Positions 14,346 to 61,582 of a DNA stretch of 64,000 bases are shown here, piece after piece; the stretch's first letter is position 1, and each line of letters opens with the position of its first letter. The position numbers were made by a program, and so were the translations under genes. Under the pieces are notes generated by a model. That model made no database searches and had not been told where the DNA came from. It saw only the letters and a list, made by a program, of their open reading frames with translations. This DNA is from Bolinopsis microptera (Eukaryota > Ctenophora > Tentaculata > Lobata > Bolinopsidae): contig NC_087074.1 in the NCBI RefSeq assembly GCF_026151205.1, forward strand, positions 13,311,182 to 13,375,181, given 5' to 3'.

Positions 14346-15442
14346 AAGCTAGATCAGTTACAATCGGCTATTTGTAAAGATCAAATGTTTTGAATGTCAC
14401 AAATGTAAGCAAAAGCATACAAGAACTAAATTCGATTTTCTCAGACTTTGAGCAACCATTATCCGTCTCATCGTGCCCCTTATAGTGATTAACAATAACA
14501 ACACCCAGATTGAAATTTGTAAAATAATGTTCAGTGTCAGTTCGTCAATAGACCTTAGATGCAGAGCAGTATGTGCCAACGGAAATACAACGTCCACTTT
14601 AAGTTATGTATCTCGATTTCTTGGCAAGCTATACAGGGATAATTTTGTCTTTACCATGCGAGCTCATCGAATCAAAGAACCGTTTAGCTTATCTTATGGA
14701 AATTAGGTAAGTTTGAACAGACTTCCAGATGTTTATTGTGCATATAATATGTGCATACTAGCATTACTGAAAAGCCCATATCCTTTAGGGCTACCCTCTA
14801 TCAACATTTTAGAGATGTGCCTTCCAGCGGAGATTGTGCACACGACATTTTCTGTCCCATCATTGCATGACATTTACGGCACTTTGGTTATTGTTATTAT
14901 TATTAAACACATATATCTAGGTCAATATACGATTTCACGGTCACACGAGCTTTTATTGGGTTGAATTTGAGCGCTCACTGTAATTAATTGATTTGATACC
15001 TCATTCCGTAATCTGTTAGTTTTTAGTCATGTTGACACGTTCCCTCTATATTGTACAATCTAGAATTATATTGCCTCAACAACAAACAGATACAGACAGA
15101 TACAATTATAATTACCACCATTACAATAGCCAGCACCATGCATTAAGTGCAGCTGTAACTGTTTACTCCCATGAACAATCAGTGAAACGTTGCCAACTAC
15201 TGACAATCGGCTCTACTGACAGATCACAGATGTCACACTAAATATAATTGTAGTGATTGTAAGTTAGTGGAATTGTATGTGAAGCTCTTACTAACACGCA
15301 GTAAAGATATTCTGTCTGTGATAAAGGTTAGTTGTCTCGTGTCAGATCTTTTAAACGCTCTGTCAGCACTCCATTTCAAGCTCCAGTACCTATCATACTC
15401 GCTTCTAGCTCCAGTACGTGTCACACTCAGCAGTACTTCACA

Positions 15443-15823
15443 ATGCTCCTACTCCTCCTCCTACTGAGTCTACTCACCCTCACCAGCGGGGCAGGTCTCT
15501 CTATCGTGAAGATGTCGGACGGTAAGTCCTACCCGGAACCCTGTGCTACAATGTGTTCAGGAGTACATGACAACTGGAGAACCTCTAACAACTACCCGGG
15601 TAAGTTGTACACTAAAGTGGACATCTCCGCCTGCAAGTTTGTGTCTTCTCCGATAGTGACTGCTACACTGAATGTACCACTCTACGCCAGTCTGACATCA
15701 GGCGGAGTGGCTATCAGACAGAGATACGGGAGCTCTTTCTATGCTTATGTGGAGGGGGATATCAGCCAGGCTGATATGGGTTGGGAGCTTATGTGGTCAG
15801 CTAGTGGGTTCAACTGTCAGTGA
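15443..15823 (+). CDS. Small secreted protein, single Cys-bearing domain
   Basis: 126 residues. The ATG at 15443 was chosen because a hydrophobic signal peptide (MLLLLLLLSLLTLTSGAG) starts there; the frame stays open upstream but is low-complexity. The mature part has four cysteines (34, 38, 64, 125), so two disulphides are likely. The pattern W..Y..KLYTKVDISACKF, then a beta-rich middle (TSGGVAIRQRYGSSFYAYVE), then LMWSASGFNC resembles a secreted beta-sandwich domain I associate with many-copy families in marine invertebrates. I cannot name the family. No intron is evident. Function is unknown; an extracellular recognition or mucus role is only a guess. Confidence 0.75.
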   Translation: MLLLLLLLSLLTLTSGAGLSIVKMSDGKSYPEPCATMCSGVHDNWRTSNNYPGKLYTKVDISACKFVSSPIVTATLNVPLYASLTSGGVAIRQRYGSSFYAYVEGDISQADMGWELMWSASGFNCQ

Positions 15824-17028: not shown

Positions 17029-20000
17029 TTAAATTGCGTTCCTTAGAACGTATGGGTCTCTGACAACATATTGATTCCCTAGACATTTATATGGCTTTTC
17101 TTCAGACTGTGTATTACGTCGAACCCGTTTTTCTGAAGGACTATCCACAGTGGATTGCTGATGAGTTTGTCCCGGGCTCTCTTTGTTAGAGGTAGCATAA
17201 TCTTTCAACATTACCTGACGCTTTCTGAGCCAATCAAACGGTTCGCTAGTAGAGTCTGCATTCATCTCCGGATGTTTGTTTTGCTGATGTCTTGCACAAT
17301 CGTATCTACGTACGTATTTATTACCACATACTGAACATTTGAATGGTTTCTCGTTCTTATGCTTCCAAGCATGTTCTTTGATTTTATATGCGCTAGAAGC
17401 AGTATATGAACACTCATTACAGCTGAATGGCTTCTTGTTCGGTTGCTCCAGGTGACCTAACAAATTCATTTTTCCGGAGGACGCATCACCTTCCAACGTT
17501 ATCAGACGATCACAACGTTCGATGGTAGAGTCTGTATTCATCTCCGGATGTTTGTTTCGCTGATGTCTTGCACAATCACGTCTACGTACGTATTTATTAC
17601 CACATACTGAACATTTGAATGGTTTCTCGTTCTTATGCTTCCAAGCATGTTCTTTGAGGTGATCTGCTCTAGAAGCAGTATATGAACACTCATTACAGCT
17701 GAATGACTTCTTGTTCGGTTGCTCCAAGTGACCTAACAAATTCATTTTTCCGGAGGAGGCATCATCTTCCAACGTTATCAGACGATCACAACATTCGCTG
17801 GTAGAGTCTGAATTAATCTCCGGGTGCTTTTGTCGCTGATGTTTTACTAAATCACGTCTACGTACGTATTTATTACCACATTCAGAACATATGAATGGTT
17901 TCTCGTTCCTATGCTTCAGAGCATGCTCTTTAAGGTGATCTGCTCTAGAAGCAGTATATGAACACTCATTACAGCTGAATGGTTTATTTCCAGTATGTAT
18001 CCGTTCATGCCTCGTAGTATTTATTTTCCAGAAGCAAGCAAAGGGACATTGCGAACACTTATAAGGTTTTAGACCAGCATGCACTATTATGTTATGCCTG
18101 TTCAAATCATATTTATTGTTGGTATGATAAGAACATCTTGTGCACCCGTATGTTTTGATTCTTGGACATCTGAATTTCTTTCTGGGTTTCTCCACTGTTT
18201 GAATATTATGATCACCTGAATGGTGCTCTTTGATGTGCTCTAAAAAGTAGCTCTCATAAAGGAAGTGCGCAGAACATACAGCACAGATAAAACCATGGGA
18301 TGTTTCAAGCGAATCTTCTTGTTCTACTTTGCAAATATCCTCCCTTATTTCTGTTTTTATCTCTGTTTTTATCTCTGTACTTATCTTCGTACTCATCTCC
18401 GTATTTATCTCCGTATTTATCTCCGTATTCATATCAGTATTCATCTCCGTATTCATCTCCGTATACATCTTCGTATACATCTCCGTATTCATCTCCGTAT
18501 TCATCTCCGTATTCATCTTCGTATACATCTCCGTATACATCTCCGTATTCATCTCCGTATTCATCTTCGTATACATCTTCGTATACATCTCCGTATTCAT
18601 CTCCGTATTCATCTCCGTATTCATCTTCGTATACATCTCCGTATTCATCTCCGTATTCATCTCCGTATTCATCTCCGTATTCATCTCCGTATTCATCTCC
18701 GTATTCATCTCCGTATTCATCTCCGTATTCATATCTTCCTCTGTTAATACTATACCACTCTGTTCGATGTTATCTGCACCTGACCCTGCAAAATAAATAT
18801 ACGTCGATCATATTACAGTACACAAGCCGAATTCCGGACACATTTAGTTAAAATACTGCCCTGTGTGTGGTAAAGGTGATAGGGAACAGCATAGGTTCAA
18901 TGCGCACATAAAGGAAGTTCACCAAAATAACTTTGTTGAGTGCAACCTATGCAATAAGAAATACAAACAGCGTCGTAACTTGTGGCATCACATGAAAACT
19001 GCCCACAAAGAGTAGATCAATGTTACAAATATTAATAACCCAGTGATGAATGTGACGCAAAATGACCATTAGCTGTAACAGCGTTTTTAATGAGAACTGT
19101 CATTATCTGAGGGTGACCAACGTGTAATATAGTATACGGTTATTGTGTACTAAACGGGGTAAATAGGTTTCAAATAGCATTCAATCGCTATATAACATAC
19201 ATTGAACTGTAACGCTCAGCTGTCTTCTTATTGTAGGTGTTAATATAGATTAAGGAAAGTTACCTTCTCGACTTAGTTTATCAGCTACTGTAGACAAATC
19301 CTCAGTACATATATTTATAAGCTCCTGAGATAGTTGTGCTGGCATAGGACTCTGTAACCGATTTAGTAACAACATGCAACACTCTGTGTTCCCTGTAAAA
19401 AAAGATTGATTTTATGTCATAATATGTTCATGATTATAACTTGGCTTATCATACTGGTCATGGTGGTAGTTGATTACCCAATAACCCTAGATCAATTAAC
19501 CTGTCGTCTATCTATTTCGGCTATCTTATATTGTGAAAAGGTCTCAGTTAACAAAAATGAATTTATCCGAAGCTATACCATTTTTAATTGCATCGTGTAA
19601 AGCAGTTTCGCCGCATAAATCTTTACGCAAGATGTTTTCGTCAGTCAAATGCTCATCTATAAATGTTTTGACTTGTTCATCATTTCCATCACAGCAAGCT
19701 CGCTGAAGTGCAGTGATACTGTGTGCGTGGTTAACAATTTTCATCGCCTCGTGTCTCTGAAAATAAAGGTGCTAGTTATTTCTTTTTATAAACTCCTTGG
19801 CCTTTAATAATTAATTCGCAACCTGTATACCTGTCCTTTTAAAAATTAAGATCGCTTTAAAATATGTTATAATTATTCATGGCTTACTTTCTTGATATTT
19901 GGAGTTGATCGTAAATACTTCTTTGCCAGACGTGCTTTTGACAAACCACTTAAACTTGCCCGCTTCCTCTTCCGGCGTGGTTTTGGCTTTGTGCTTCCAT

Positions 20001-22476: not shown

Positions 22477-25400
22477 TTACATGGCGTTTCTTAGAACGTA
22501 TGGGTCTCTGACGACATATCGATTCCCTGGACATTTATATGGCTTTTCTTCAGACTGTTTATTACGTCGAACCCGTTTTTCTGAAGGACTATCCGCAGTG
22601 GATTGCTGATGAGTTTGTTCCGGGCTCTCTTTGTTAGAGGTAGCATCATCTTTCAACGTTACCTGACGCTTTATAAGCCAATCAAACGGTTCGCTAGTAG
22701 AGTATGCATCCATCTCCGGATGTTTGTTTTGCTGATGTCTTGCACAATCGTATCTACGTACGTATTTATTACCACATACTGAACATTTGAATGGTTTTTC
22801 GTTCTTATGCTTCCAAGCATGTTCTTTGAGGTGATATGCTCTAGAAGCAGTATATGAACACTCATTACAGCGGAATGGCTTCTTGTTCGGTTGCTCCAGG
22901 TCACCCAATAAATTCTTTTTTTCGGAGGGGGCATCATTTTTCAATGTTATCTGACGATTCTTAAGAGGATCACAACGTTCGATGGTAGAGTCTGTATTCA
23001 TCTCCTGGTGCTTTTGTCGCTGATGTTTTGCTAAATCACGTCTACGTACGTATTTATTACCACATTCAGAGCATTTGAAAGGTTTCTCGTTCCTATGCTT
23101 CAGAGCATGCTCTTTGAGTTGATCTGTTCTAGAAGAAGTATATGAACACTCATTACAGCTGAATGGTTTATTTCCAGTATGTATCCGTTCATGCCTGGTA
23201 ATATTTATTTTCCAGAAGCAAGCAAAGGGACATTGCGAACACTTATAAGGCTTTAGACCAGCATGCACTATTATGTTATGTTTGTTCAAATCATATTTAT
23301 TGTTGGTATGATAAGAACATCTTGTGCACCCGTATGTGTTGATTCTTGGACATCTCAATTTCTTTCCGGGTTTCTCCACTGTTTGAATATTATGATCACC
23401 TGAATGGTGCTCTTTGATGTGTTCTAAAAAGTAGCTCTCATAAAGGATGTGCGCAGAACATACAGCACAGATAAAACCATGTGATCTTTCAAGCGAATCC
23501 TCCTGTTCTACTTTGCAGATATCCTCCCTTATTTCTGTTTTTATCTCTGTTTTTATCTCTGTTTTTATCTCCGTATTCATCTCCGTATTCATCTCCGTAT
23601 TCATCTCTTCCTCTGTTAATACTATACCACTCTGTTCGATGTTATCTGCACCTGACTCTGCAAAATAAATATACATCGATCATCTTACAGTATCTTTCCA
23701 AAAATTTATTCAACAAATTTATTCAACCAATTTATGTATTCAATATACATGAAATTTTTGTGCACAGAAATAACGATAAGACGATAGTGAACTATTGCAC
23801 CGATTATCATTCGACCTATCCGACCAGCATTTTGTACAATAATAATTGCAAAGAACTAACCTTCTAGCTCCAACTCCTCAGGGTTTCGCAGTGCAGCCAG
23901 GTTATCTGCTCCACAAGACACATAAAGCTCTCTGCTGAGTTCGTTACTCACCTCCAGTGCAGGATTATTTAGTATCAACAAGGCACATCCCACGTGACCT
24001 GTGTGAGCACGTGTCATGTGATCAGCTGCAAACAAAAAAGCGGCTAAATTTTTTTTACAAAAACGTTCTTGAATGATCACATGGGATATTGATTATTAGA
24101 ACACTCATATTATGTCTTCTTACACTACCTATACAGCTATACTAACAGGAAACTATTTTGCAGGTTTTTACCATGATTAATGGCAATATGAAGAGCAGTT
24201 TCACCAGATGTATCTCGTTTCAGAAGCTGGGACGAGGTCAAATTTTTAATAAGATTCCTCGTCTTTTCCTCATCCCCCTGCTCACAAGCTCGGTGAAGCA
24301 TGTTGGTTTTCGTCAAACTATTCACTGTTGTAAGTGCATTTGGAATGAGGAACTGTGGGAACTGGGAAGATTATCAATGGTAAAAACTAATGTTTAAGTT
24401 CTTTTACTAATAAGTGACACTTCAAGGATCAGTTATGTTTTCTGATAATCAGTGAATGTCAGTATGAGTAAGCACAATTGTTGAGGTTACATATAATACT
24501 ATTATATACTATAATATAATATATATTATCACACTTTCGAGCCAAATTTGGCAGGAAAGCAGAATTGATATTACATGCCCCGATGGGGAGCACTGGCTCT
24601 CACCCGGGGGCATGAAATATCAATCAGTTGCTCAGAGAGAGTCCGATATTCCCTTAGGAACAAGGAGCCCACTCTCAACAACTGTTCTACTACTGTGAGG
24701 TGCTGATTTAAGTAAAAATTTAAATCAACAACCTGAAGTAGTCTATGACCGTAAATGCAATGATCAGATAAACTTTCCAGATTCAGGAAAAATATATATT
24801 TATACCTTGTTTTAAAAACATTTCCTTGCGTTTGAGATGTGTTAAGCAAAATACATTTTTTTGTAGTAAAACTTTTTCAAGCTGTTGCTTTTTTACTGCA
24901 CTTCATAGTTCAAAACCTAATTAGGCTTCGGATGATGAAACAAAGTAAAAACTCCCTGGTTTGTACGAGTTTCAAGCGACTTAAGGTTACTGAAAACGAG
25001 ATCAAAGTTTACAAGCAGACTTGAAAGTTGCACAAAGTTTTGGTACTTGTCAGCGATACAATCAATCAGGCTAACTAATTTCCTTAATCGCTTACTTGAA
25101 ATTAAAAAGGAAGTGTCAGAACAAACTACAGTCGCCCTCACAAAAAAATAGTAAACACTAAACGATGTTTGATTAATTCGAACGAATAAAACACACAAAA
25201 CAAGAATCTTGGTGTCAAGTAGTTATATTTGAAAGAAAATTATTGTCAAGAATTGATAAAGGGCTGGTCAGCAAATCATAACGTAATAAATTGTGATACA
25301 TTACGATGTGGGATCATTCGCATATCAATTTAGCCACATTTCAGCCATTTCAGACCTCACTTTTAACCCCCTCTGATCCCTTCTGTGAGCCATATTCCAT

Positions 25401-54500: not shown

Positions 54501-57500
54501 ATTGATTAATGTTAATAAAGTAATAAAACCAAGAAAATTGTAAAACATTACATCGGAAATAACTACAAAATGCGAGAGATATCTGAGTTTTCCAGACGAC
54601 CTATATTACCGACCTCGAACTTAGCAGAGTCCCAGGAAGTGTTGGCGTGAGTAGGCCGGCTGACAAACCCACTCTGTATCTCGTACTGAGCTTCAGTAGA
54701 GCTCACTGATAAAGGAAACTCTACTTTTAAAAACTTGTGAGCTGCCCGCCATGACACCTTGGAATATTTTAGTTGGTTAAGACGATTGAGAAGTTCCACG
54801 TTGAGTTGGGTATCTGTTTTCTATTTTTAAAGTAGCAGAACAAAAAGGAAGTTTTTGAAGAAAAACACATTGAAATTTAGCAAATTTTCTTACATCTGCC
54901 TTGAATGAGAGATATGGTGTCTCCGCAAGAACAGTTGCTATGAAGGTCAAGTCACCGTGTGCACCAAGGGGAACTGTTATCTTAACACTGGCTCGAAGTG
55001 GACCTGATTCTACCACCTGTAAAGTATTACACTTATTGGTACCTATAAACAGTATGAATGCGTGAAATTTAAGTATTAAGAAGCTATCTTGATTATATTA
55101 CAACCTAAACGTTTTCACTGATCTAAAAAATGAACATTTTGATGATAATCCCATGGATTAATAAGCTCGAAAAGCGTTTTGAAATCTGAATTCTATGTGC
55201 CATTTTTGATACCAAAACACGACAAAATGGCACATTTTTTTTTCAACATAATTATGAAAACTACAAACCTGAATTGATGTAGGATGAAACTCCTGTCTGG
55301 TCTCAACATGGTACTCCATAACATCCCAAGCATCCCAGAACAGAGGCACGTCATCAAATATCACATATCGGTTACCCATACCTCCAGCCTCCAAACACTC
55401 CCGCTGTGTTGGTTTGTGTACCAAAGACTTTAGTAGTCCTTCCAGTGAAAATACCACTTTTATCAAACTGTTACACAGACAAATTCCATCCTCCAGAACA
55501 AATGCCCCAGCTTTGTCTGTTGGTGTAACGAGGGATATAGAGCCTATGTAAGTGCTAGGAACCTCAACCAAAGCTTCTTCGACCTCGTTTATTGTGAGAA
55601 CTTGTCTTCTGGCCCAGTTGTACGGATTAACAACAAAACTCTTGGAATCTGGCATGACAACATCTCTGATTGTTTCCCACTCTTCGTTGTACAGTATCAG
55701 TAAATTTGTGTAGTCCTCCATGGCATCGATGAACACTTGCTCAATTGCACTGCCAGGCAAGATATCGTGAAATTGGTTGAAAAGGACGGTTTTCCACATT
55801 TCTTCAATTTTTGAACAAGAGACCAAACCTTTGACATCCAACGAAGATAAAAACTCAATATCAGTCATCCAAAATTCAGCTACTCTATTTGATTCCTTCA
55901 ACTTAGCATGTGTAGTGTAGGTTCCACGGTGCAGTTCGAAATACAACTCTCCCCACCATTCACACAGCATGTTTGAGGACTTCTCAACTGCTGTAAAGAA
56001 CTTTTGAGGAGTTGACCGAACAATTTGAGGCATTCCAGTTATTGAAGAGATTCTCTCAAGCCTATCAATCATTTCAGGAGTAGGCCCACCACCTCCATCT
56101 CCGTGACCAAACAGCAACATCTGGTCATGAGTTCTGCCTTTATCTTTGTTGTTTGAAACTGTTTTGAGTACATCTTTGATCTTTAAATCTGATTCATATG
56201 TGTCTCCAGGAGGAAAATGAGCCAAGACCTTGCTTTGATCAATTCCTTTCCAAATGAAAGTGTGGTGAGGAAAAGTGTTAGTTAAATTCCAGCTCAATTT
56301 TTGACTCAAAAAGTATTTTATATCACAGAGCTGCATTATTTGTGGAAGTTGTCCGCTGTACCCAAATGTATCAGGCAACCAAAGAATGTCACTATGGGTG
56401 CCAAATTCTTCTCTATAAAACTTTTGACCATAGAGAAACTGTCTGACCATAGATTCAGCGTTTGGTATATTTGTGTCCATTTCAACCCACGAACCACCAA
56501 CTGGTGAAAAATGTCCTTTCACAACTTGTGCCTTTAAAGCTGAAAAAAGCTTTGGGTAGAACTTCTTAAGCCAACTGAACTGAACAACCTGTGATCCCGC
56601 AAAATTAAATTCCATTCCAGCTTCAAACATAGATATTGTTGTAGACCAACTTCGGGCCACTTTTCTTATCGTCTCCCTGTAGGGCCATAACCAAGCAGTG
56701 TCAATATGACAATTTCCAATGGCATGAATGGTGTCCCTACTACTTGTACCATTGACTATTCCACTATTAAAAAGTTTCTTTCCAATTTGTATAGCTTGTT
56801 GGTATGATTCGGGTGAGTGATCATTCAAAGTTATGACATTGATGATTTCATTGCCAGTGTATAAAGCATCATAACATAATGAAGTGTTGTCATCTGATTC
56901 TTTAGCAATATCATACAACACAGACAGATCCATGAACACTGCATACTTTGCTTGATCTCGTACAAATATGTGAGCCTTTGTAAGGTTGTATGTTTTATTA
57001 GGATCTGGAGCGTTGATCATTCCGTTGAGACCAGCTCCAAATAGACCTAAAGGGTTAGAATGATTACTTTAAATGTATATACAGGGGGGGGGGGCCGGGG
57101 GGGGGGGGCCAAAAGTCAGTGTTCAAACGTTGGGTCTTATACCTCCACCGTGTTTTATATTTGAGAGTTGTTGCTTTGCAGATGGTATACTGTATCTACT
57201 TGTTCGAGGATTCTGTCGCCAAAATTTGAAAATTCGAATATTTTAGACCACGCCCATTCAATATTAAACACCTATATTGTTATCTCTGAACATGCTGGAC
57301 GCCCAATTTTTCCAGAGACGGTAGATTATTAAATGTTGCATCTGATCTGAAAAAATGAGGCAAAACGGATTAGAAATGACGAAGTTATCATGCATTTTGT
57401 GTATATGGACACGTTCATTGAAGTTTGAGGATATTGGTAAATATAAGTGACCCTACTGAATGGCACGATGATGTAAAATGTGTCACACTATGAAACTATA

Positions 57501-60500
57501 TAAACCCTCTAACCCTAAGATAATCGTTTCATCCTCTAGATAAACTTTGTCGCATAACGATATCTTTATCAGACGATAAGATATCGCTAAAATGCGGCCG
57601 GCAGTGAGTTGTAAACTTTGTCACACTATAAAAACGTGACGGAGTTTATATGGACCCCTTGTTGCCGTGTTTGACCAAATTTTCGAATTTCCAATTCATA
57701 GAATGGCTGTATATGACTATTATCTACATATTTAGCGACTTTTTTCCTTAAATGGTAGCACCATGTAAACTCCGTCACACATTTAAGAAATTTATATAAG
57801 GGATGTTTATGACATTCTGACAAGAAATGCCGAATAGTCTAGCATTATTTTGTGAGCTGAATGTGTTTGGAATTGTTCACATATTTCATTGTTATAGGCA
57901 AATACAAATACAGAAGGCAGAAATAGGTAAATTTAGTCACATAAATTTGTATGATATCTCAACATGTGTGAAATTGAGTAAATATTAGTATACCAATTTA
58001 AACACCCTATATTACGTACTATGGATCAATGAAAGATATTTCAACCATACGCCGGTCATATAAATTATTATATGGCAGTGATATGTTAACATTGGATAAA
58101 TTTCAACACCTGAACAGGGTAAAAATTTGTAAATTTCGTCACAGAAAAAATATTATAACTTTATTTGCTCCGTGTTGGCAAAATAACTAATTTATCGACA
58201 TATTGATGGTGATAAAGTAACATTATATACTAATTGAGGTATGATTCTTCAAAATAGGGGCAAGAAATGTAAATTTCGTCACATCAGCCATTGCATTAGT
58301 TAGATATATTTTCTTTCATATCAACTGCCCTTATTATAGTTGGAATGGATTTATACAGGAAATATAGAAACCCATGCCCATTTTTCATCACATTGAAATT
58401 ATACTGTTGGGGCAGGAAAAGTGAATTTCGTCACATTTCGGTAAATTAGTGATATCAAACTCAGCATTGTTAAACTTGGGTTCTGATTAGCTGAAAAATA
58501 ACTTACCAATAATTCCTGGAAGAATATTGAATTCTAATCGGGGTATGGTTCTTCAAAATAGGGTCAAGAAATGTAAATTTCGTCACATACGTCATTGTAA
58601 AATGTAGATACATTTTCTTTCACATCAACAGTCCTAATTATAGTTTGAAATGATTAATTCAGAGATAAAGGAAATATAGAAACCCATGCCCATTTTTCAT
58701 CACATTGAAATTATACTTTTGGGGCAGGAAAAGTGAATTTCGTCACATTTCGGTAACTTAGTATATATAAACTCAGAATTGTCAAACTTGAGTTCTGATG
58801 ATCTGCTGAATAATAACCTACTAATAATTCCTGGAAGAATATTGAATTCTAATCGAGGCATGTTTCTTCAAAATAGGGTCAAGAAATGTCAATTTCGTCA
58901 CATCAGCCATTGCATTAGTTAGATAGATTTTCTTTCATATCAACTGCCCTTATTATTATTGTGACAATTTTTACATCAATTGCCCTTAACTTGAATCAGC
59001 TCTATCCGTGCATCGTCCTTATATACAGTTTTCCCGCCTTCCAAACCAAAATCGGATATAAATGATTTCGGCAATTCACCCAACATTTTAAATTCCATAT
59101 AATGTGACAGAATTTACATCATTTCCCAATAAGTGCATGTATTTGTTAACTTTTCAAAACAACATATTTTAGGGCTATGATTGGTAAAAGAACCATCAAA
59201 TAATGAGTTGAAAGGGTTTTGAGGACACCTCACAGTAGAAAAGAGGTATCGTATTCTGAGTGTGACAAAGTTTACGAAATATTGCCTTAAAACCGTTCGA
59301 TCCCTGCCCTTTAGCCAAATGTTGTATCATTATTGTTAGAATGACCTAATCTACTATATTTTAAACCAAAAAATGCTAATTGGGCAGATATGGTTAAAAC
59401 AGTCACAAAAATGTGACATTTTTTACATTATAGTGCCTAAAAACAATAAATTGTATTTCTGAGCCGTGTATATGGAAGTATGGGTCACGTGGCTAATGTC
59501 CAGAACTTCTGAACACGCTATTTTTTTTGGTTTACCAATATCCTTAAACTTCAACATGAACGTGTCCATTTACGATTTCGTATCATTTTGTGACGATGTT
59601 TACATCAACTGCCCTATACTTCAATCAACTGTATCCGTGTATCGTCCTCATATATAGTTTTCCCGCCTTCCAAACAAAAATCAGGTATAAATGATTTCGG
59701 AAATTCACCCAGAATTTCAAATTTCATATAATGTGACAGAATTTACATCATTTCCCAATAGCCAAGTGCATGTATTTGTTAACTTTTCAAAACAACATAT
59801 TTTAGTGCTATGATTGGCAGAAGAACTATCAAATAATGAGTTGAAAGGGTTTTGAGGACACCTCACAGTAGAAAAGAGGTCTCGTATTCTGAGTGTGACA
59901 AAGTTTACGAAATGTTGCCTTAAAGCCATTCGATCACTGCCCTTTAGGCCTACATTGTATCAAAATTGTTAGATTGACCTAATCTACTATATTTTAGACC
60001 AAAAAATGCTAATTGGGCAGCTATGGTAAACAATGTCACAAAAATGTGACATTTTTTACATAATAGTGCCTAAAAGCAATACATTTTATTTTTGAGCAGT
60101 GCATATGGGAGTATGGGTCACGTGGCTAATGTTCAGAACTTATGAACACGCTAGATTAATATATGTTAAAATTAAACCACTATCGTCAAAAACGCTGTTT
60201 TAGAAATTTACCAATTTCCTCAAACTTCAATGAACGTGTCCATATCGTTAACAAAATTGACTGGGTGATTATGTGACACCGTGACACGACACCTTAATTG
60301 GGCACCCTTAACACTTCCCATATGTGATATGTTTAACGGGGTGGTTAACGGGGTCACCTAATCACGTGATTAGGTAAACCAATCACCTGATCACACGTAA
60401 TGAATAAACTCGTTATGCTTCATATCTCGGTCATCTGAGAAGCTACAACTCTAATTTTTTCAAGACAAATGTAATTCGAATGGCCAAACACAATTAAATA

Positions 60501-61582
60501 AAATGTAGCTCGATCCGACTATCCAAACTATCAAATAAATGTGAAAATGAACCTTCATTTGAAAAAAATGAACACGAATATTTTTCGATTTGACAAATTC
60601 CTTGAACCAGTGATGGTAGTAAGTCATACCAGAAAGAATTATTTCAATTGGGCACCCAGTGACTGAGCTATTAAGGCTAACATTGGCACACTGAATTTCC
60701 CCCCCCCCCCCTGTACAATAAAATCTTCGCAAGTGATAAATATTTTTCATATGAAAACTTACATCAAATAAAATTATATCTCACCTGTACAGGAGATTTG
60801 AATAAAGAAAACAGCATCTTCATCATGTGATTTGACAACTATTTTCATTTCTTTCCTCTTGTGGGACATTCCCTGAATTAGGTTGCCATCTTTATCACAT
60901 ACAAGTGACTCAGCTCCACTAACGTCCCAATGGAGGTAGAGATTTTCCATGTTACACACATTGGCAGGAATGATCACTTTTACCCAGTGTTGAGACCATC
61001 TAAAATCAATTGATTAATATTACATAATGAAGGGTAACGACCCATAAACCCGCAGATGATTATCTATCTAAAATAAAATGTTGTCTTAATTTTAAAATGC
61101 TGTCTTGTGAGCTTACTGAACAAAAGAAAACCATCATGAAAATGTATACAGAATAGAATTATGACACAAGAAATGTGATACATTTTTCCAATCATCATAC
61201 GTACTTACAATGGTTTAAACTCTTCCCCTTCAGTTATAAGTTGGAATACTCCATTTTTCACACTTTCAAAAGCCTGGTAAGTTTGTTTTCTTGCTAGGGA
61301 ACGATACAGCTTACAATGTGGGATTTTGGAATCCACTCTGAAATATTCAATAGATTCACAATTATCATAGTATGATAGTCGATAATATGGTCTGAGAATA
61401 ACATATTTTTAAGCAATTTTTGCATCTTACAAGATGACAAATTCGAATGAAAACCTATGTTAAAAGGTGTTTTTTATCACTCACCTTCCAAATAAATTGA
61501 CATCTGTAAAGTAGATCTCAGAAATGTATTTTTCTAATCGTTCCAATGTTGCACGTTTGTGTTTTAATACAGTTGAGCTCAT
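51544..61582 (-). CDS. MAN2C1: Cytosolic alpha-mannosidase, glycoside hydrolase family 38
   Basis: Ten exons, all GT..AG and in phase: 61582-61485, 61337-61209, 60999-60785, 57046-55269, 55016-54894, 54757-54614, 54469-54319, 54183-53960, 51958-51858 and 51715-51544. They give 1044 residues, matching the family's roughly 1040. The start [19 protein letters not shown] fits the known N-terminus. The large exon holds the catalytic domain: [12 protein letters not shown] (His261, Asp263, zinc ligands), [10 protein letters not shown] (Asp373, nucleophile and ligand), [11 protein letters not shown] and [11 protein letters not shown] (zinc His). The C-terminal beta domains end with [12 protein letters not shown]. 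The enzyme trims mannose from free oligosaccharides in the cytosol. The exon 3-4 intron holds a 3.6-kb transposon, and the exon 8-9 intron holds a GPCR gene on the other strand. No defect is seen. Confidence 0.96.
52483..53610 (+). CDS. Orphan seven-helix receptor nested in a MAN2C1 intron
   Basis: 375 residues, one exon, opposite strand to its host gene. Seven hydrophobic spans can be placed: about 24-44, 55-84, 94-123, 137-160, 180-197, 218-243 and 264-291, with a seventh at 315-332 if the 180-197 span is a loop or re-entrant piece. Rhodopsin-family traces are an Asp in helix 2 (AIADIAV), Cys95 at the top of helix 3, and [10 protein letters not shown] then RNPTLRKKF at the helix 7 end in place of NPxxY and helix 8. 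The DRY motif is absent; the equivalent region reads QFKDPFR. One N-glycosylation site (NKT) lies near the start. It is most likely a lineage-specific receptor; the ligand is unknown. AATAAA follows at 53847. Confidence 0.75.
   Translation: MMYSFTENKTEILENYKGALGYELSSTNLLLSFTILLQNSLIIKCYMDQRARFSAAMYIAIAIADIAVAQGSIIVSVAGILVVADMWDVQMLYYCIYYNIATAGLAQSCSKIYNAVLIIVMTVQFKDPFRRLDYRKIRLWVASLTVALGVLYLCDSLTFLYLEISKNYQKYYEFHLIIPTFIYFPGVASLVGLVCEGFDSDLCDNPDMTRPYANTLLGLIFLVDDILPPLVYLVSTIILVIFLNISTREHDMTCLMTSDVRHVSITVVLVATLSFFCYFTVAMIIILYAVKYGFAGKSMPYSMVKRGRVAGVSEFTLPLLNAVLFPMILVKRNPTLRKKFIASSLAVFVDIPRYCWTRFRNIINRYDDDISYDFL
53847..53852 (+). promoter_or_regulatory. Candidate poly(A) signal of the nested receptor
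   Basis: AATAAA about 240 nt after the receptor stop codon and 108 nt before MAN2C1 exon 8 on the other strand. Confidence 0.5.
57082..60713. mobile_element. 3.6-kb mariner-type element with a symmetric 14-bp motif array
   Basis: It is flanked by TA and has inverted ends of the CAGGG..GGCCAAAA type, swollen by G or C runs. It shares both ends with the MITE at 29531-30296. No transposase frame is present. The interior carries GTAAATTTCGTCAC-type motifs about every 150 bp: ten forward ones between 57473 and 58901, and eight reversed ones (GTGACAAAGTTTAC type) between 58961 and 60059. The switch falls at the element's centre (58898). It lies in intron 3 of MAN2C1. Confidence 0.88.

Follow-up and report, generated by a model that had tools for sequence, protein, structure and literature searches.

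A nested non-autonomous transposon of Bolinopsis microptera with an inward-facing array of composite sites: a candidate binding array for a transposase supplied in trans

In the present study, we analysed a 64,000-nucleotide stretch of the genome of the ctenophore Bolinopsis microptera (NC_087074.1, positions 13,311,182 to 13,375,181; hereafter the window). The stretch 57407-60241 of the window is a DNA transposon of the terminal-inverted-repeat type; it is non-autonomous, is flanked by a 4-bp target duplication, and lies within another repeat. This element is a member of a family that we refer to as B, and it carries an array of composite sites that point inwards from each end; two further families, C and D, have related arrays. 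Based on comparisons of these families, the arrays are probably bound by a transposase that is supplied in trans and the specificity of which changed between families.

The preliminary description of this DNA regarded 57082-60713 as a single element; however, it consists of two nested elements, an outer repeat flanked by TA and the inner element that it holds. When 57082-57480 was searched against the source genome of the window (264,652,675 bases in 232 contigs, 264.7 Mb), 40 matches were scored among 2643 first-look candidates, and 38 of them ended at query position 323 or 325, which corresponds to 57404-57406, the boundary of the inner element. Since genome searches on repeats score the best candidates only, the copy numbers given herein are lower bounds. 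Of the remaining two matches, one was the window and the other was L002, where a family C element is present. Copies of the outer piece on the right, 60250-60698, likewise occur elsewhere in the genome, and the pieces 57102-57404 and 60250-60698 recur without the inner part, only 6 bp apart, for example on contigs C46 and C25. The locus L006 represents an empty site, reading TTTTGTGTATCTCGTTAAC where the window reads TTTTGTGTATAT-element-ATATCGTTAAC, and a single base differs after one ATAT is dropped. The length of the outer repeat without its insertion is estimated at approximately 0.75-0.8 kb. A different outer repeat copy (L002/L035) contains a C element, inserted at a point 2 bp away and with the duplication ATAC.

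Long G and C runs are present in the outer copy of the window at 57084-57110 and 60700-60711, where L006 has CAGGGTGGGCC, and these are either expanded homopolymers or assembly noise. As seen in L006, L040, L041, and L043, the end of the outer repeat also resembles that of an intact mariner-like element of 398 amino acids in the same genome (CAGGGTG, flanked by TA), three copies of which, on C3, C9, and C13, are 98.7-99.5% identical, and which looks to have been active recently.

The two arms of the inner element share a terminal repeat of approximately 37-40 bp plus the motifs described below, and nothing else. Among insertions that were not selected by an end pattern, the 4-bp flanks were identical in 16 of 18, and one insertion matched at three of the four positions; L069, which has a short internal repeat at its right end, scored two of four, and by eye its flanks are ATAT/ATAT. 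The duplications in the 16 identical cases were ATAT, TTAT, ATAA, AAAT, TAAT, and ACTT/AAGT, with TTAA in L045 only, and were mostly of the form WTAW. Insertions such as L049 (AAAT), L074 (TAAT), and L077 (ACTT) do not agree with a TA duplication; L077 and L078, which have common flanks, represent a single insertion event. A first reading as a Tc1/mariner element with a TA duplication was abandoned because it was based on copies picked by a pattern containing ATAT, whereas copies fetched by similarity show the 4-bp duplication.

The inner stretch was found at 12 further places over at least 2841 of the 2851 query bases with 96-98% identity, and a pattern of its ends, with three mismatches allowed, gave 468 forward and 479 reverse matches in the genome (0 in the reversed control). 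The sample of family B comprised 37 elements: the window element, 28 copies from the end-pattern list (L011-L034 and L036-L039, which come from the 100 matches listed, of 468 + 479), and eight copies found by similarity (L044-L051); cut-short pieces in L052, L053, L054, L066, and L067 were excluded from the counts. No stop-to-stop open reading frame (ORF) of at least 120 amino acids overlaps the inner element, in agreement with the absence of a coding frame noted earlier, and no autonomous copy was apparent among the 37 elements. Regarding the candidates for such a copy, the ORFs of the long copies L011, L013, L014, L036, and L037 are retrotransposon-like by eye only, the insertions in L012 and L038 lack a long ORF, an ORF of 250 amino acids in L026 matches no assigned family by inspection, and the length of L039 is due to its expanded array. 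The pattern TATATGGACACGVVDB had no match in the genome (three in the control), and GGACACGTTCATTKRAGTTTGAGG had none in viral contigs.

A scan of the 64-kb window for GTAAANNTNGTCAC with up to two mismatches yielded 42 matches against 24.1 expected, 23 of which lie in 57407-60241. The 18 motif starts listed in the preliminary description, together with odd ones at 57636 and 60026, are all present in the orientation assigned to them, and we additionally found a paired site at 59393 (forward) and a weaker one at 57540. In 13 sites that remained after the removal of tandem duplicates, each base of GTCAC and positions 2, 4, and 5 were invariant (13/13), and the A that follows was present in 12. 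Downstream of these sites (+5 to +45), the flanks matched at the random level (0.276 versus 0.279 expected); upstream (-45 to -4), they matched slightly above it (0.309), and a third block, GGYA, is hidden there. This block occurs 5-13 bp upstream of 16 of 21 sites in B and 11 of 18 in C, standing 10-11 bp upstream of many of them, against a background of 4.7-4.8% of the 9-mers in the elements, although the significance of this difference is overstated because the block was picked by eye before counting. The composite site is accordingly written as GGYA-N6/7-T-GTAAA-N4-GTCAC-A, with approximately 21 occurrences that fill nearly the whole body of the window element.

The array is partly tandem: stretches of 149-158 bp in the left arm recur at 304-315 bp, 58230-58956 is partly tandem (315 bp), and a stretch of approximately 630 bp is doubled in the right arm. 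Units of the array have thus been lost and gained through tandem duplication. When the left arm was compared with the right, terminal repeats excluded, every local match with E < 0.5 contained the motif. The DNA between the motifs had been described as partly unrelated; the downstream flanks of the sites match at random, and the arms share only the motif. Simple tandem duplication, which had been named as a possible refutation, accounts for part of the array, but the motif is also common to sites whose spacers are unrelated.

It had also been considered that other copies might lack the array; all 37 B elements carry it, with 11-42 sites each by a single pattern. For orientation, we rely on a wider set of 41 elements from B and C, measured with a site pattern that was looser and that revealed the unusual copy L028, rather than on a narrower set of 30 elements, in which most long copies were excluded and a stricter pattern was used (17 sites in the window element); the C element of L035 and L002 was left out of both. 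With the best single switch point, only one or two sites were misplaced in 36 of the 37 B and all four C elements (40/41), and many of the misplaced sites were partners of inverted pairs. The switch in the window element lies in 58902-58960 and its inner midpoint is 58824, whereas the previously proposed geometric centre, 58898, is that of the outer repeat. Across the 41 elements, the switch position, as a fraction of element length, ranged over 0.08-0.88, with the most extreme values in copies that carry other insertions, and in the 30-element set it ranged over 0.31-0.71. Midpoint symmetry is, thus, no general rule. In L028 (C7:1916550-1921604), the array flips orientation several times, and L039 (C5:16861130-16870707) contains 34 consecutive forward sites, a case of an array within a transposon that is growing into a satellite.

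Family C offers a more informative comparison. A query of its left 713 bp was matched at 98-100% identity by all 40 scored places, from 1111 first-look candidates, and because of this uniform identity, this part of C is regarded as young and recently spread; between C copies, the arrays are more variable than the left 713 bp. The alignment of C with B extends over the length of C, with spacers that are 75-77% identical. In this comparison, we used four of the five C copies read (L063, the right end of which lies outside the stretch, was omitted) and nine B copies besides the window. Five of the 21 sites (59590, 59733, 59895, 60046, and 60026) have no counterpart in C, and two further ones have none in L062. 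GTCAC was kept at all 16 comparable sites, with 80 of 80 bases identical in three C copies and 69 of 70 in L062, and 0-2 of 2744 rotations were as good. The GTAAA half was identical at 50 of 80 bases, which is below the spacers, and the whole 14-mer was hardly better kept than these (78.6% versus 75.6%; 399 of 2000 shifts as good). The earlier claim that the motif is more conserved than its surroundings consequently applies to the GTCAC half between families, and neither to the whole 14-mer between families nor to the sites within B. The change had a direction: at position 3, A was replaced by T in 12 of 12 sites, compared with 53 of 644 A's in the spacers (Fisher p 3e-13), and C has T at 16 of 16; 58269 and 58573 are tandem duplicates, which leaves 11 independent sites. 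Since GTAAA inside the terminal repeat is unchanged between B and C, a general mutation bias is not behind the half-site change.

Family D was reached through the pattern TATGGACACGTTCAV, which gave 31 matches (two in the control). The reads covered both ends in six copies (L069 and L074-L078), whereas L065, which is interrupted by another insertion, was read in part and excluded from the counts. The terminal 11 bp, GGACACGTTCA, are the same as in B and C; apart from these, blastn detected nothing of note (best E 0.007). The motif of the D array, TGATTCNNNNATCACA, occurs at 11 sites with up to one mismatch in L069 versus 0.08 in shuffles, and has TCAC in common with the B and C motifs. Each of the three motifs is nearly private to its own family and barely present in the elements of the others. 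A fourth family with GGACACGTTCA ends was not apparent, because the pattern GGACACGTTCANNNNBNNNVH showed no excess over its control (22 versus 40 matches) and no facing pair. Six same-strand ends, TATGGACACGTTCAG, were found in a 20-kb cluster, in which L070 (C6:1638500-1642420) yielded no element; what follows the end in L070 does not resemble B, C, or D, and an old insertion in a gene region that was later duplicated is a possible origin.

Considering these comparisons, the sites are predicted to be bound by a transposase supplied in trans, for which many contacts of low specificity at each end would improve the recognition and pairing of ends. Between B and C, the specificity of this transposase for one half-site may have shifted and the array may have followed, while GTCAC stayed. 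A transposase appears to be the best fit because the sites are polarized relative to the ends, the dialects of the families differ, and non-coding copies have spread; an array-wide half-site change in a sister family would be expected if one moving enzyme reads all sites. The sequences, thus, favour the protein-binding array that was among the options of the preliminary description, in that C keeps GTCAC while the other half changes and the D array shares TCAC. More tentatively, the families may be dialects of one composite site, in which GTCAC/ATCAC is fixed and the other half is GTAAA in B, GTTWA in C, and TGATTC in D; a switch in specificity might have rewritten the half-site at every independent position, such that the elements record an arms race between protein and DNA and compete on array length.

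Several observations weigh against this interpretation. Within family B, the copies of which are approximately 97-98% identical, the sites had no significant advantage in conservation over the spacers, as 164-1478 of the 2744 rotations did equally well; the B copies look to have been neutral after insertion, with selection visible between families only. In L028, the switch block is repeated and 6 of 32 sites are misplaced. The polarity of D is mixed, with five inward and three outward sites in the left half of L069 and two and one, respectively, in its right half, and the GGYA block was absent upstream of D sites (0/19). Moreover, no transposase was found between matching ends in the 7 of 13 DDE_3 and 10 of 123 DDE_1 matches read, with reads that extended approximately 1-1.5 kb beyond most ORFs, 114 DDE_Tnp_4 matches unread, and THAP not searched for.

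A host protein, such as a transcription factor or a replication or chromatin factor, may alternatively bind the sites and be exploited for expression, replication, or silencing. The number of sites, which is far above the three THAP sites of a Galileo terminal inverted repeat, would suit a host protein, as would the sequences GTAAAC and TCACAC, which resemble a forkhead core and a T-box half-site, respectively. We nevertheless consider it unlikely, since one host factor is not expected to differ within a genome that contains three families with related ends and three half-sites, and sites that face inwards from both ends, as in B and C, suit the recognition of ends. Passive, satellite-like growth, in which a unit was duplicated in tandem, the spacers diverged later, and no function was involved, would explain the tandem blocks of 304-315 and approximately 630 bp, the row of forward sites in L039, the repeated block in L028, and the unremarkable conservation of motifs within B; it is less likely still, because it does not lead one to expect the intact GTCAC between B and C, the concerted shift in the other half-site where the spacers are unrelated, or an equal polarity in arms that otherwise share nothing. 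The phased chromatin or packaging signal suggested earlier, which a nucleosome-like spacing of approximately 140-200 bp would suit, is very improbable: the commonest spacings in 17 copies were 111, 138, 143, 152, 154, 162, and 202 bp, coherence with 10.5 bp was 0.11 on 36 distinct spacings, and some D sites are approximately 50 bp apart or overlap.

Returning to the predicted transposase, a relative with the same ends that bears the enzyme had been proposed as a check, and none was present among the DDE_3 and DDE_1 places read: the DDE_3 places (L040-L043 and L071-L073; 7 of 13) and seven DDE_1 stretches (L055-L060 and L079) had no matching ends. Intact DDE_3 elements were rejected as the source because they have other ends (CAGGGTGTTTCGAGACTCG..) and their internal GGACACG runs the opposite way, and the DDE_1 fragments beside B ends in L052-L054 lie outside the element. 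As for known superfamilies, CACTA/EnSpm elements bear CACTA-type termini, whereas the present ends are GGACACG, and the duplication of Galileo is approximately 8 bp long, as opposed to 4 bp here, which also separates the element from the P/Galileo group. Long terminal inverted repeats of the foldback type are absent. PIF/Harbinger and ISL2EU elements are described with a TWA or AT duplication (PMC4482050), which differs from the 4-bp duplication found here. Kolobok elements are described with 5'-RR and YY-3' ends, a 4-bp TTAA duplication, and usually a THAP domain in the transposase (PMC9587614 and PMC6004289, in excerpt), and the GG..CC termini of B, C, and D agree with these ends. A DDE transposase bearing H2CH as well as THAP domains is a further mark of the superfamily. 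The GGCA block agrees partly with the THAP1 site, given as 5'-TxxxGGCA-3' (PMC4177242, in excerpt). On this basis we infer, with less confidence, that the transposase may be THAP-bearing and Kolobok-like. Against this assignment, many GGYA blocks do not fit the THAP1 site fully, and the duplication, although 4 bp long, was TTAA in one of 16 cases (L045). We did not file the element as Kolobok because of this lack of TTAA specificity and because no transposase was found.

The nearest known case is, by analogy, that of the multiple THAP sites of Galileo in the P superfamily, in which, according to the sections consulted (PMC3688188), the THAP domain has a site at 63-80 bp from the end and further ones within internal repeats. 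The likeness lies in DNA that is repeated internally and has several sites at each end, a first site at a similar distance (66 bp at the left end here), and a conserved terminus of approximately 40 bp; in contrast, Galileo-G has inverted repeats of 1.2 kb with three described sites, while the window element has approximately 21 sites in arms that are not inverted repeats, its duplication is 4 bp, and no transposase was found for it among the places read. Tetris, of the foldback type, is similarly non-autonomous, with tandem units in both arms, array growth, and no autonomous copy found, but the source, as far as excerpted (PMC4079207), gives terminal inverted repeats that reach 1,735 bp, repeats of 220 bp, and duplications of 8-10 bp, as opposed to an approximately 37-bp repeat and conservation of a motif rather than a unit. 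Kolobok, KolobokP, and T2-MITE elements share the RR..YY ends and a 4-bp AT-rich duplication (3-5 bp in KolobokP), and one T2-MITE member is linked to amplified internal repeats (Xstir); the target of family B is not TTAA-specific, and a motif array is absent from the Kolobok descriptions in the excerpts of these sources (PMC9587614, PMC6004289). The GGCA block suggests a further likeness to Kolobok in a possible THAP-bearing transposase. In P elements, the transposase sites lie inward of the terminal repeats, recognition involves THAP, and the spacing at the two ends is unequal; these elements differ in their 10-bp transposase sites and 11-bp internal repeats, the lack of an array in the portion of the source used, and an 8-bp duplication (PMC7776569). 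A literature search for a transposon with such a motif array found none, which does not prove absence, and among the matches listed for the string GGACACGTTC, no transposon-related use was apparent.

These arrays bear on how transposases find their own ends in a large genome and why elements keep long non-coding repeats. One genome contains three multi-copy families, which agree in their terminal 11 bp and have related arrays, and one pair is alignable site by site, making B and C a natural experiment on the co-evolution of a DNA-binding protein with approximately 16 comparable sites. The idea of Marzo et al. that multiple sites confer transposase specificity (PMC3688188, in part) becomes testable with arrays of different lengths. 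The coordinates of the features are summarized in Table 1.

Table 1. Features of the nested elements, in window positions
Feature	Position	Strand	Remarks
Outer repeat	57082-60713		CAGGG..CCCTG ends; flanking TA, 57080-57081 and 60714-60715; both ends of window copy have G/C runs
Inner non-autonomous element, family B	57407-60241	+	2835 bp; ends GGACACGTTCA..TGAACGTGTCC; carries the array
Target site duplication ATAT, left	57403-57406	+	
Target site duplication ATAT, right	60242-60245	+	
Left terminal inverted repeat	57407-57442	+	GGACACGTTCATTG..GGTAAAT
Right terminal inverted repeat	60206-60241	-	
Left arm, ten inward sites	57473-58901	+	57473, 57611, 57765, 57927, 58129, 58269, 58421, 58573, 58733, 58888
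First left-arm site	57473-57486	+	66 bp from end; GGCA upstream
Inverted pair	57611-57649		57611 +, 57636 -
Right arm, eight inward sites	58961-60059	-	58961, 59104, 59262, 59413, 59590, 59733, 59895, 60046
Inverted pair	59393-59426		59393 +, 59413 -
Inverted pair	60026-60059		60026 +, 60046 -; similar pair near right end in most other copies

The nested elements sit in an apparent intron of a minus-strand gene for a glycosyl hydrolase 38 alpha-mannosidase (55158-61000), with a Pfam Glyco_hydro_38N match (E 5.5e-87) within 55158-57065 and an exon-like open stretch at approximately 60,790-61,000, upstream of the Glyco_hydro_38N part. The genes of the window also include a member of the amiloride-sensitive sodium channel family. 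Two similar ORFs at 17029-18807 and 22477-23679 are zinc-finger-like by eye, and have a 12-bp repeat coding for MNTE/MYTK near the start and a repeated unit of 276-288 bp. The ORF at 15332-15823 is actinoporin-like by eye, with no Pfam match. Elsewhere in the genome, L055 and L079 each contain a DDE_1 ORF of 501 amino acids and are 99.9% identical over at least 2460 bp, which suggests either a very recent transposon or a duplication.

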